Origin: Planctomycetota bacterium
Lineage (GTDB): Bacteria; Planctomycetota; Planctomycetia; JALXBF01
Direction of reading: 5' to 3'
Assembly (NCBI GenBank): GCA_026991575.1
Contig: JALXBF010000115.1
Location: 1 to 52,563 of the forward strand
Length of the DNA: 52,563 bases
Within the stretch, counting starts at the first letter, position 1. Each line of letters begins with the position of its first letter. Shown here in pieces: positions 15,621 through 19,584 of the stretch. The notes under the pieces are model-generated. The model did no database searches. It worked only from the letters and a program-made list of their open reading frames with translations, and was not told the origin of the DNA. The position numbers and the translations under genes are program-made.

Positions 15621-15632
15621 CGCGGTCGTCAG

Positions 15633-15992
15633 TGGAGGCGGCGGGAATCGAACCCGCGTCCCGCGACAGCTCGGTGAGGGCTTCTACGTGCGTAGCCGGT
15701 CTAGTTCGTCTCGCCCAGCCGGCTCTGACCGGCAAGAGCACAGCTGAGCCAGTCCGGAGTGGTTTCTCGTCGGAGCCTCCCCGGACACCGGCTCCGACCA
15801 GCCCGGTTCACGGCCTCTTGCAGGTTCCCCCGGGCGAAGGATCCTGCAGAGGGGCTACGTGTTTCGCTTACGCAGCCAGAGCATAAGAAGGAGTCGCACT
15901 TATTGTGCAGTCGGCTTGATAACGGGGCCTGCCGACCAACCCCGGCACGCCACCTCTCACCTCGTCTGCCCGGTCGATACCAATTCGCCCCC
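15633..15992 (-). ncRNA. ssrA: Transfer-messenger RNA (tmRNA)
   Basis: 360 nt on the minus strand. The 5' end GGGGGCG (15992-15986) pairs over 7 bp (one G-U) with the 3' acceptor strand that precedes discriminator A15633. The 3' part contains the T-arm GCGGGTTCGATTCCCGC, and the 5' part contains the GGTATCGAC element corresponding to the usual GGxTTCGAC. CCA is not encoded (ACT follows), so it must be added after transcription. The RNA rescues stalled ribosomes together with SmpB, whose gene lies 230 bases upstream on the same strand. A good terminator follows. The mature 5' end is inferred from acceptor pairing. Confidence 0.95.
15868..15897 (-). other. tmRNA proteolysis-tag reading frame
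   Basis: Within ssrA the sequence AATAAGT-GCG begins a frame GCG ACT CCT TCT TAT GCT CTG GCT GCG TAA, giving tag ATPSYALAA (after the Ala carried by tmRNA). The resume context resembles the E. coli AATAGTC-GCA, and the YALAA end matches the degron recognised by ClpXP-type proteases. The resume codon is inferred by analogy; an upstream in-frame GCC would give a longer tag. Confidence 0.8.
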
Positions 15993-16222: not shown

Positions 16223-16693
16223 CTATCTTCGCTTCAGCATCCGCTGGCGGATCGCCTTCTTGGCCTCGCGTTCCCTGATCTTCTCCCGTTTGTCGTACTG
16301 GCGTCGTCCGCGTGCCACGGCGAGCTCCACCTTGGCCAGGTGTCGTTTGAAGTAGATCCGCAGCGGGATCAACGTGTAGCCCTTTTGCTGGACGCGGCTG
16401 GCCAGCTTCTCGATCTCGCGCCGATGCAGCAGGAGTTTCCTGGGGCGCTTCGGCTCGTGGTTCATGGCGCCGGCTTCCGGATAGATCGGAATGTCGGCGT
16501 TGACCAGCCACACTTCGCCGTTCTTGATGCGCGCAAACGCTTCTTCTATGGAGGCCTTACCACGACGCAAGCTCTTGACCTCCGTGCCCATCAGCGCCAT
16601 GCCAGCCTCGATCGTTTCCAGGATGTCGTAGTCGTGTTTGGCCTTACGGTTCCGGCAGACGATTTGTACGGCCTTGGTGTTTTGGGCGGCCAT
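16223..16693 (-). CDS. smpB: tmRNA-binding protein SmpB
   Basis: 156 residues, the usual length. SmpB is a small RNA-binding protein that escorts tmRNA into the A site of stalled ribosomes. Recognisable stretches are RNRKAKHDYDILETIEAGM, L.GTEVKSLRRGKASIEEAFARI, EVWLVNADIPIY, KLLLHRREIEKL (RKLLLH core) and the basic tail YDKREKIREREAKKAIRQR that inserts into the decoding centre. The start is 39 bases after the aroF stop and has only a weak ribosome site, so it is probably co-transcribed with aroF. ssrA lies downstream on the same strand, giving the order aroF-smpB-ssrA. Confidence 0.97.
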   Translation of the reverse strand: MAAQNTKAVQIVCRNRKAKHDYDILETIEAGMALMGTEVKSLRRGKASIEEAFARIKNGEVWLVNADIPIYPEAGAMNHEPKRPRKLLLHRREIEKLASRVQQKGYTLIPLRIYFKRHLAKVELAVARGRRQYDKREKIREREAKKAIRQRMLKRR

Positions 16694-16732: not shown

Positions 16733-17746
16733 CTAGAGCGCTCTGCCGATTGCATCGGCCACTCGGGCACACTCCAGCATCATACGTTCGAAGGCTTCCA
16801 AGTTTAGTGACTGATAGCCATCGCTCCAGGCCTCGTCCGGTCTGGGATGGACCTCGACCAGGAGTCCGTCGGCGCCGGCAGCCACGGCGGCTCGGGCCAT
16901 GGCCGGCACCAGCGACGCCTTGCCCGTGCCGTGGCTCGGGTCGACGATGATCGGCAGGTGAGTCCGCTCTTGGAGGTAGGGGACGGTCGCCAGTGGCAGC
17001 GTGAAGCGGGTGTGCGTTTCGAACGTGCGGATGCCGCGTTCGCAAAGGATCACCTGGCGGTTGCCGCGGTCCAGGATGTATTCGGCAGCGAGCAGGAACT
17101 CGTCGACCGTTGCGCCGTGGCCGCGTTTCAGAAGCACCGGTTTGTCCAGCTCGCCAACGGCCTGTAGCAGCAGGTAGTTTTGCATGTTGCGGGCGCCGAT
17201 CTGGAGGACGTCGGCGTATTCGGCGACGAGCGGAACCTGTTCTGGCGCGAGTACTTCGGTCACCACAGCCAGTCCGGTTTCTTCGCGTGCCCGGGCCAGC
17301 AGCTCAAGGCCTTGTTTGCCGAGGCCCTGGAAGCTGTACGGGCTGGTACGCGGCTTGAACGCGCCGCCGCGCAAGGCAGTAGCCCCGGCTGCTTTGACCG
17401 CCCGGGCCGTGGCGAGGATCTGTTCTTCGGTTTCGACAGAGCAGGGGCCTGCGATGACAGCGACGCGGCTGCCGCCGACCTCAAGGGATCCGGTGCGAAC
17501 GATCGTCTTCTCGGGGCGGACTTCACGCGAGGCGATCTTGTACGGGGCAAGGATCGGCACGACCTGCTCAACACCGTCCATCGTCTCCAGCGCTTCGCGC
17601 GCACCGTCGCGCTTCTCACCAATCGCCGCCACGACGGTCCGCTCGGTACCGACGATCACGTGCCCTTTCATGCCCATTGCTTCAATCCTCCGGACCACCG
17701 CGTCGATCAAAGGTTGCGGGACCTTGGGTTTCATGACGACAACCAT
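16733..17746 (-). CDS. aroF: 3-deoxy-7-phosphoheptulonate (DAHP) synthase with N-terminal regulatory domain
   Basis: 337 residues from ATG 17746, chosen because AGGGAGG lies about 9 bases upstream. The enzyme joins phosphoenolpyruvate and erythrose 4-phosphate as the first step of the shikimate pathway in the cytosol. Residues ~1-75 form a ferredoxin-like domain as in the Thermotoga-type enzyme, where it mediates feedback inhibition by Tyr/Phe. The catalytic barrel has AGPCSVE (near 100), [39 protein letters not shown] and VDPSHGTGK. Upstream on the same strand lies a terminator hairpin and a leader peptide rich in Trp/Phe/Tyr, so expression is probably controlled by transcription attenuation. 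smpB follows 39 bases later. Confidence 0.96.
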
Positions 17747-17777
17747 CGCGTTAGCCTCCCTCGTGTTTCGAAAACGC

Positions 17778-17816
17778 AAAAGAAAAAGCCCTGAGGCTTC
17801 TCTGGGCCTCAGGGCT
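17778..17816 (-). terminator. Attenuator (intrinsic terminator) upstream of aroF
   Basis: On the minus strand an 11-bp arm AGCCCTGAGGC (17816-17806) pairs perfectly with GCCTCAGGGCT (17797-17787) across an 8-base loop, followed by TTTTTCTTTT (17787-17778). It lies 31 bases before the aroF start and after the leader peptide, the position of a trp-type attenuator rather than of an upstream gene's terminator. The 5' arm can instead pair with the upstream GCAGGGC segment. Confidence 0.9.
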
Positions 17817-17824
17817 TGGATTGC

Positions 17825-17893
17825 TCGACTGTTCGGTCAGGCGGTGGTTCAGTCGACCGAAGAGCCGGCGCTGCCCTGCGACCCAGCAGGGCT
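17825..17893 (-). promoter_or_regulatory. Alternative RNA structures of the aroF leader (pause/antiterminator elements)
   Basis: Minus-strand segment 1 AGCCCTGC (17893-17886) begins just after the last Phe codon of the leader peptide and pairs with segment 2 GCAGGGC (17879-17873). Segment 2 can alternatively pair over 6 bp (CAGGGC/GCCCTG) with the terminator 5' arm. Between them two overlapping 7-bp hairpins are possible: TTCGGTC (17861-17855) with GACCGAA (17838-17832), and TCGACTG (17856-17850) with CAGTCGA (17831-17825). This is the expected layout of mutually exclusive pause, antiterminator and terminator structures. Confidence 0.75.
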
Positions 17894-17941
17894 AAAGTAG
17901 AACCACCACCAGCTAAATCGCCGGTCTTCGTGGCTGCGCAT
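17849..17941 (-). CDS. aroF leader peptide (aromatic amino acid attenuation)
   Basis: A 30-residue frame from ATG 17941 (or 41 residues from ATG 17974 in the same frame) to TGA at 17849-17851. Residues 11-16 are WWWFYF, encoded at 17911-17894: three Trp, two Phe and one Tyr codon in a row, preceded by another Phe. In classical trpL/pheL leaders, runs of the regulated amino acid's codons stall the ribosome when the charged tRNA is scarce. Here the stall site directly abuts RNA segment 1 of the attenuator, so a stall would free segment 2 to disrupt the terminator and let aroF be transcribed. All three aromatic amino acids come from the pathway that aroF starts. Neither ATG has a strong ribosome site, so the exact start is uncertain. 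Confidence 0.85.
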   Translation of the reverse strand: MRSHEDRRFSWWWFYFSPAGSQGSAGSSVD

Positions 17942-18151
17942 CCGGCTCACTCGGCTTCGGTTAACCACCACCATGCACGCAGGGGACAGGCCACCAGAGC
18001 CTGTTCACGAACAAGAATACCCACCCCTGCCCCCGATGTCAACCCGAACCGCGCAGGCGCGCGGGTTTCCGTGTCGAACGTCGATGGCGGCATCCCTGTG
18101 CACAGCGACATAGCCGACGGATGGTGCGATCCACAGACCCGCCGCCGCACT

Positions 18152-19468
18152 TCATCCGTACACGACCAACTTCTCCGTAAACGGAACAGCCATCCCCTCC
18201 TTGGAGCGGTGCCTGATGTACACGGCTCGATCACCTGGCCGACGAACGGAAACGTACATCTCGATGGTCATCTCCTTGGTGCCGGGAGTCAGATCGACCA
18301 CGACCTGACCCTCCGGGACGTTGCTAAGCCACTGATCTCTTAGCCCTTGCTGAGCCTCCACGAGCCGATCAGGGCTATCGAACTCGCAGAACACCCAGCG
18401 AGGTGACCGGGCAATCAAGCCTCTGGAGAAGCGTGCCACAAGGTCCCGAATCTCCTCGGCCTTCTGCCTCATGTTCTGCGTGTACAGCAGCAGCACCCGG
18501 TCCGGCTGTGTGGCGACGACGCTATAGAAAGCCGAAGCAGCGTTGCCGCTGGCGATCGTGACCAGCGTGTCCGCCGACTGCTGGCCCGTCTGCTGCAGCC
18601 ACTGCTCCCGCAACGCTGCAGCAACGCGGGGCATTACGACCCGCTGATAGTACGCCCTGGCTTTCTCATACTGTCCGGACGAAATCAGACGATCGAAGTA
18701 CTTTTGATGCTCTTGCGGCGGGGCGTCGGCTCGCGGGGCGGGCGGAAAGAGGTCCTTGCACGCCCGGAGCACCTCCCGAAGATCACGGTGCCGGCAGCTT
18801 AGCGAAACGATCTTCAACTCAGCACCCAGTTCTGCGCGCTTCCGCTCCGCTTCTTCTCGATTGAGCTCCGGAACCAGCAGTCGCTCTGCGCCGAGCTCCA
18901 CCGCAAGCTCGACCTTCTGAGGGATTCCCTTCACCGGAAGCACGCCAGACTCAGGGGACCACTCACCCGTGGCAAGACAGCGCAGCGGAGCCTCCAGCGT
19001 ATCCGCAACATCCAACAACGCGATCGCCGCGGGAACCCACCCGGACTCCCATCGCACCAGACTTGCGTCTGTCAGCAGCTCCACCGCCTCTTTCGATACC
19101 CCCTCGGGGGCACATAGGCGCCAGCCAGGCACGTCGAGGCTTCGGCTGACGCGGTCACCGAACGGCAGCACCAGACCGTCATCAGCTGCACCCGCCCGGC
19201 GCCACACAACCGGCAGCGCAATAGCCTGCCGCAGCAGCGGCACCTCCGCCAGCAGCACAAACAGAATCGCAGTGCGCCCTTCCCCGGTTGCTTCGGCCAG
19301 GTCCATCCTGTGGCTGTTGCCAAAGAGTTCATCCAGCCGGCGGAGCGCAGCCGGACACAAGATCCAGACACTCCACGGGCCGAAGGCTCGGGCAACCTGC
19401 GTTAACCGGCCCGGGGTCAACGCATCCAGTTCGGTATCGACTAGACGCAAGAGATCCGATCGAGTCAT
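18152..19468 (-). CDS. Lon-like protease domain fused to CARF-like sensor domain (cassette A)
   Basis: 438 residues from ATG 19468 (a GTG at 19540 is a longer option). Residues ~1-130 are an unassigned N-terminal domain. Residues ~138-205 match the S16/Lon proteolytic fold: SGWVPAAIALL with candidate nucleophile S142, TGEW (167-170), then VLPVKGIPQK with K185, followed by the typical GAERLLVP strand. The Ser-Lys spacing is 43, as in Lon, and the Lys aligns with that of LonB proteases. A helical linker (YFDRL...ARAYYQRVV) leads to a CARF-like Rossmann domain (~300-420) with LVTIASGN at its first strand and VVVDLTPGTKEM at 388-400, resembling the ligand-binding motif of Card1/Can-type CARF proteins. 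I infer a nucleotide-gated protease. It is the last gene of a minus-strand set with a helical/beta protein (44-bp coding overlap-free gap of ~0.1 kb) and a sigma factor. A full-length paralogue sits at 48-49.5 kb. Confidence 0.75.
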   Translation of the reverse strand: MTRSDLLRLVDTELDALTPGRLTQVARAFGPWSVWILCPAALRRLDELFGNSHRMDLAEATGEGRTAILFVLLAEVPLLRQAIALPVVWRRAGAADDGLVLPFGDRVSRSLDVPGWRLCAPEGVSKEAVELLTDASLVRWESGWVPAAIALLDVADTLEAPLRCLATGEWSPESGVLPVKGIPQKVELAVELGAERLLVPELNREEAERKRAELGAELKIVSLSCRHRDLREVLRACKDLFPPAPRADAPPQEHQKYFDRLISSGQYEKARAYYQRVVMPRVAAALREQWLQQTGQQSADTLVTIASGNAASAFYSVVATQPDRVLLLYTQNMRQKAEEIRDLVARFSRGLIARSPRWVFCEFDSPDRLVEAQQGLRDQWLSNVPEGQVVVDLTPGTKEMTIEMYVSVRRPGDRAVYIRHRSKEGMAVPFTEKLVVYG

Positions 19469-19584
19469 CGGAGTGCTCTTGCTCCGCTTCGATTGTTCCC
19501 CCGTTGTCGCCGGCGACAGCTCTCGTCCTCGAGATACCACTCGCCGGCCACCCCCGTGCGCTTACTGTCGTTACGCCAACAGTG

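Follow-up and report, generated by a model that had tools for sequence, protein, structure and literature searches.

The aroF gene of a planctomycete, which encodes a 3-deoxy-7-phosphoheptulonate (DAHP) synthase, is in all probability controlled by classical ribosome-mediated transcription attenuation, in which a single leader would read the supply of Trp-, Phe- and Tyr-tRNA together. A trp-type attenuator had been predicted in front of this gene, and the comparison with related loci bears this out, as the codon run, the antiterminator and the terminator are conserved and covarying across the class. What the sequence and its comparison with relatives show is the leader with its alternative pairings, which covary, and a codon run that matches the pathway.

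Architecture of the aroF leader

In the window, which is the whole analysed stretch of 52,563 nt, all elements are found on the minus strand in the order promoter-like site, leader ORF, codon-run hairpin, antiterminator, terminator and aroF. The product of aroF (16733-17746) matches the NCBIfam models NF006421 (491.9 bits, cut-off 335) and TIGR01361 (393.5, cut-off 267.75), and translation likely starts at ATG 17746, behind the Shine-Dalgarno-like GAGGGAGG that is read directly from the sequence at 17755-17762, rather than at TTG 17779. The promoter-like site TTGACA-17-TATTCT (18042-18014) is a consensus match only, with 10/12 matching positions and 0.3 such sites expected by chance in a 2.5-kb scan, and it falls outside the range 17778-17974 that was covered by the original prediction. 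As to the neighbourhood, smpB (16223-16693) and tmRNA (15630-15992) lie directly 3' of aroF on the minus strand, an order that is not conserved, since tmRNA was not found at the aroF loci of 14 relatives. Upstream of the leader, also on the minus strand, a 462-aa protein is encoded (18152-19540) that weakly resembles a CRISPR-associated CARF protein (TIGR02710, E 8e-8, under cut-off).

The leader ORF ends with the stop codon TGA (17851-17849) and is present in both of the forms that had been described, a long one of 41 aa (MVVVNRSRVSRMRSHEDRRFSWWWFYFSPAGSQGSAGSSVD, 17974-17849) that begins with ATG 17974, and a short one of 30 aa (17941-17849) that begins with the in-frame internal ATG 17941. 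The short form is favoured because leaders of the relatives inspected start mostly 2-9 residues ahead of the aromatic run; a Shine-Dalgarno-like core is absent before both candidate starts. Both forms contain the sensing codons TGG TGG TGG TTC TAC TTT (WWWFYF, 17911-17894), equivalents of which are present in 57 distinct units.

The 143-nt leader folds with a z of -4.4 relative to dinucleotide shuffles. The outer arm of the codon-run hairpin is formed, in the minimum-energy fold, by the Trp codons and the next Phe codon (GGUGGUGGUUC, 17910-17900), which pair with GAACCACCGCC (17850-17840), a segment that begins inside the stop codon. This outer codon helix encloses a hairpin of strand 1, GCCCUGC, directly 3' of the aromatic codons (17892-17886), with 17879-17873, and the terminator forms downstream. 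Strand 2 (CUGGGUCGCAGGGC, 17886-17873) can alternatively pair with strand 3 (GCCCUGAGGCCCAG, 17815-17802) to form an antiterminator of 12 pairs around a 2x2 loop, with a duplex energy of -28.7 kcal/mol and a z of -3.8 relative to shuffled linkers. The terminator (17817-17786) has a perfect stem of -23.4 kcal/mol with an 8-nt loop and is closed by the T-tract TTTTTCTTTT (17787-17778); its perfect pairing and T-run had been recognized correctly, but the stem comprises 12 rather than 11 bp. As strand 3 contributes to both the antiterminator and the 5' arm and loop of the terminator, the two compete for it and the hairpins are mutually exclusive, as had been proposed. The competing folds are the classical states, 1:2 with 3:4 versus 2:3.

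Conservation of the aromatic codon run

Homologues of aroF were collected from relatives and from named genomes, and those with 65-72% identity are labelled Planctomycetota in their record titles. Of 109 aroF upstream regions, 53% contain a short ORF with at least 5/8 aromatic residues, whereas the corresponding values are 1.8% for the reverse strands of these regions and 1.7% for dinucleotide shuffles, which makes the predicted conservation of the run in planctomycetes evident. The prediction would have had to be given up if related aroF genes lacked conserved leader codons or terminators; what is found upstream of aroF are 57 distinct units of leader and terminator, nearly all of them planctomycete, with phyla beyond thinly sampled. 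L, I and V make up 2.3, 1.3 and 1.1% of the run residues, and the run is therefore not a mere matter of hydrophobicity. A test for coding based on codon differences (18 synonymous, 5 aromatic-to-aromatic, 51 other; positions 37/39/42) was uninformative overall, as residues outside the run drift.

W, F and Y together are found in 48 of the 57 leaders within 14 residues of the run's end, which speaks for the sensing of all three amino acids. It is rather unlikely, if still worth considering, that each leader senses chiefly one of them, Trp in the window and Phe or Tyr elsewhere, and that the mixed run reflects a loose composition. In line with such a view, three Trp codons are consecutive in the window, W is missing from 8/57 leaders and Y from 1/57, and W is mostly located 4-7 codons before the end of the run with F and Y nearest to it, so that stalls at different residues may differ in effect. 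The ratio of W:F:Y among the aromatic residues is 19:51:29, and their ranking is thereby roughly the one seen in proteins overall. Besides the 48 complete leaders, an argument against sensors for one amino acid comes from trpE and pheA, at which the unit was found in 0/29 cases each in the same class: with no leaders of their own at these genes, aroF alone among them could read each amino acid.

Not every aroF gene is preceded by the unit. A leader was detected at 38/63 named loci with at least 62% identity, and the unit is absent from close relatives such as L004, L009, L022, L040 and others. At leaderless loci, a long open frame often reaches aroF or ends close by, as expected if aroF became operon-internal there; L009, L040, L042 and L061 are examples of leaderless loci without such a frame. 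Units are found in L062 and L073, labelled Gemmataceae, and reach Brocadia-type members (L097, L101) as well as L178, L179, L181 and L183 outside the class, which are considered Brocadia-like because they resemble L097 and L101. Among ten aroF loci at a greater distance, from other phyla and from two Scalindua, L109 (Anaerolineae) alone combines an aromatic short ORF (AYFYFFY) with a terminator close by, about 22 nt past the stop codon of this ORF. The ORF is far from the gene, about 500-600 nt upstream, and the arrangement may represent attenuation by aromatic amino acids beyond the Planctomycetota. At L106, likewise a distant locus, an aromatic ORF is present and a terminator was not found. 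A strong terminator, identical in both, is located 62-27 nt upstream of aroF at L026 and L051. No aromatic leader could be detected there, and the terminator may be a remnant or serve some other control.

Covariation of the terminator and the antiterminator

Covariation was computed on a sequence-only alignment of 45 aroF units, and the predicted covarying hairpins emerged strongly in the case of the terminator and significantly in the case of the antiterminator. Double changes occur in 10/12 pairs of the terminator stem, with a covariation score of 0.495 vs 0.227 in shuffles and 97 vs 25 double-change cells, and the T-run is kept alongside the covarying stem across relatives. For the antiterminator, the score is 0.222 vs 0.172 with 27 vs 11 double-change cells, and the pairing is best at slide 0. 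Strand 2 fits the variable strand-3 segment of its own locus better than that of others (-4.93 vs -3.62, p≤0.0001). In this permutation test, the control segments reached p=0.056 (3' part of the linker) and p=0.002 (codon run), and as the codon run also fits its own locus, relatedness contributes to these results. The codon run pairs better with its own downstream element than with permuted ones (p=0.004; for example ACUACUUCCGG:CCGGAGGUGGU in L068), and the sensing codons therefore sit in the outer arm. The inner hairpin of strands 1 and 2 (17892-17886 : 17879-17873) covaries weakly (permutation p=0.038), and the 1:2 domain reaches a mean z of -0.9, only slightly better than mononucleotide shuffles, both of which speak against the proposed fold rather than for it.

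The conservation of a terminator also bears on the level at which aroF would be controlled. The alternative pairings by themselves would permit translational control, with hairpins hiding the ribosome binding site of aroF, but this is improbable, because the T-tract closes the terminator upstream of and apart from GAGGGAGG, terminators of relatives end a median of 80 nt ahead of the reference start of aroF, and the stem covaries with its T-run kept. Control by termination of transcription fits these observations better.

Specificity for biosynthetic genes and exchange of the codon run

The unit is specific for certain genes. None of 20 second copies of DAHP synthase from the same class, which share about 50% identity, carries it, and, in addition to the trpE and pheA genes mentioned above, it was found at 0/29 ilvB and 0/27 hisD genes of the same class. 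A covariance model termed R1, which was built from aroF units alone, matched 31/39 relatives. It recognizes the window with E 2.3e-11, a training sequence, and it also recognizes the leuA leader of the window's own genome with E 6.5e-5, which was outside the training set. Several of its matches at genes other than aroF precede a 2-isopropylmalate synthase gene and contain Leu runs, or precede a citramalate synthase gene and contain Ile/Val runs. Other matches, L256, L257 and L260 among them, have no cognate codon run and were ruled out as attenuators of this type.

In a direct scan, Leu-run units were detected at 50% of 28 leuA loci and Ile/Val-run units at 46% of 28 cimA loci, whereas non-matching combinations of codon run and pathway were near zero in the scans of aroF, leuA and cimA. 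The leuA leader of the window's own genome is MPNLPLLLKLLRLRPGR (L264, G000:C29, about 1319-1470), and further Leu-run leaders with terminators precede leuA in L265-L269, L271, L275, L276, L284, L285, L287, L288 and L290. At cimA, Ile/Val-run leaders with terminators are present in L294, L295, L297, L299, L300, L301, L305, L306, L310, L313, L314, L316 and L317. Genomes of family f4 (e.g. G003, G008, G013, G018 and G025) have no attenuator-bearing aroF orthologue and contain only the copies of about 50% identity, and several of them still have Ile/Val-run units at cimA.

As a model built on aroF finds Leu runs at leuA and Ile/Val runs at cimA, the codon run tracks the pathway, and no other single argument for the proposed attenuation mechanism is as strong as this match. 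The leaders of aroF, leuA and cimA may share one ancestral RNA or may have converged on a design of a terminator plus GC-rich strands. A metabolite-binding riboswitch or a T-box-like RNA that overlaps a short ORF by accident would have a similar output, as it would also place a terminator ahead of a biosynthesis gene. Such an RNA is very unlikely here, because the leader has no match to any Rfam family at gathering score, Trp_leader and Phe_leader included, with weak matches being unrelated short hairpins, and because a ligand pocket would not need the conserved, pathway-matched codon identity with its swapped cassettes. That a terminator of another unit lies by mere chance beside a meaningless short ORF is hardly credible, since, common as short ORFs are and with a promoter that is a consensus match only, such ORFs are so much rarer in shuffles than upstream of aroF, terminator and antiterminator covary, and units are absent from the paralogues and the other genes scanned.

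Proposed mechanism of aroF attenuation

As judged from the sequence, the leader would be transcribed and translated, and stalling of the ribosome would allow readthrough in the following way. RNA polymerase would start near 18006, trailed by a ribosome that translates the leader ORF. With charged tRNAs available for Trp, Phe and Tyr alike, this ribosome would clear the codon run. In the window, the codon-run hairpin with its 1:2 strands would then re-form, whereas the closer stop codon of most relatives would leave the ribosome covering strand 2. In either case, strand 3 would pair with strand 4 and transcription would end before aroF. A shortage of any one of these tRNAs would instead make the ribosome stall in the run and break the outer codon helix, and by masking part or all of strand 1 it would free strand 2, which would pair with strand 3, so that no terminator is formed and aroF is read. 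One leader, placed at the committed step, would thereby gauge the combined supply of all three end products.

The geometry is compatible with such a mechanism if a ribosome is taken to cover about 10 nt beyond the A-site codon. A stall at the final Phe or Tyr codon would mask all of strand 1, whereas a ribosome that stalls at the Trp codons would reach only the edge of strand 1, yet would break the outer helix, which is why Trp sensing would have to act mainly via this helix. Across the relatives, the median distance from the run to the stop is 33 nt and from the stop to the terminator 30 nt, and a ribosome at the stop would therefore often cover strand 2. The leader in the window would depend on re-formation of the 1:2 domain, because its stop is about 45 nt from the run.

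Relation to known attenuators

The planctomycete unit resembles the enterobacterial trp and pheA leaders (RF00513 Trp_leader, Phe leader) in that a leader peptide with cognate codons and a putative codon-run hairpin are combined with an antiterminator that shares an arm with the intrinsic terminator; unlike these, it would read three aromatic amino acids and guard a DAHP synthase. Like in the planctomycete, the sensing codons of the E. coli trp leader are in the outer arm. Several amino acids of one pathway are also read by the multivalent leader of ilvGMEDA, which differs in that they are branched-chain amino acids, where those of the planctomycete leader are aromatic.

A single leader that senses all three aromatic amino acids for the first shikimate step in a planctomycete had been considered apparently unreported, and this has to be qualified. 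For the aroF gene of Corynebacterium glutamicum, a leader peptide with Phe-Tyr-Phe has been predicted (PMC4046766); in the available part of that report, no Trp is named and no covarying structure is described, and this leader from a different phylum is likened here by description only. The uORFC-13-1 motif of Acholeplasma, an upstream ORF with at least one Phe followed by a terminator before aroF (PMC8632094), is likewise likened by description and is restricted to Acholeplasma and environmental sequences. Already in 1980, attenuation was hypothesized at the DAHP synthase gene aroF of E. coli, for tyrosine only according to the citing work (Camakaris 1980, cited in PMC2659441). A survey of Actinobacteria lists no attenuators for Phe or Tyr operons (PMC1262725). 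Given the predictions in C. glutamicum and in Acholeplasma, the mere presence of an attenuator at aroF is no novelty. No report of planctomycete attenuators was found in the open-licence literature searched, and what appears new with respect to this literature is the combination of W, F and Y in one leader, its home in the planctomycetes and the design that it shares with the leuA and cimA leaders, with their swapped codon cassettes.

Implications for gene regulation in planctomycetes

It is on balance probable that planctomycetes use modular attenuators at aroF, leuA and cimA, in which the codon cassette is exchanged, and that transcription and translation are coupled across the class. The modular design may consist of the codon run, a GGGGCC-type strand 2, a GCCC[CT]GA-type strand 3 and the terminator, and if this holds true, the cassettes for W/F/Y, Leu and Ile/Val mark the committed steps aroF, leuA and cimA. 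Coupling is implied by conserved attenuators, because the ribosome must closely trail RNA polymerase. For Gemmata obscuriglobus, it has been claimed that transcription and translation are spatially separate (Gottshall 2014, cited in PMC6212462), and the planctomycete cell model underlying this claim is contested (PMC6554331). It can be argued that the conserved putative attenuators, including those of the Gemmataceae-labelled L062 and L073, favour coupling at least at these genes, as covarying and conserved attenuators would make little sense without it. The leaders are ready reporters for testing the disputed coupling in planctomycetes. Leader-peptide attenuation would thus be extended to a phylum for which no report was found, with a single sensor at the entry of the aromatic pathway.
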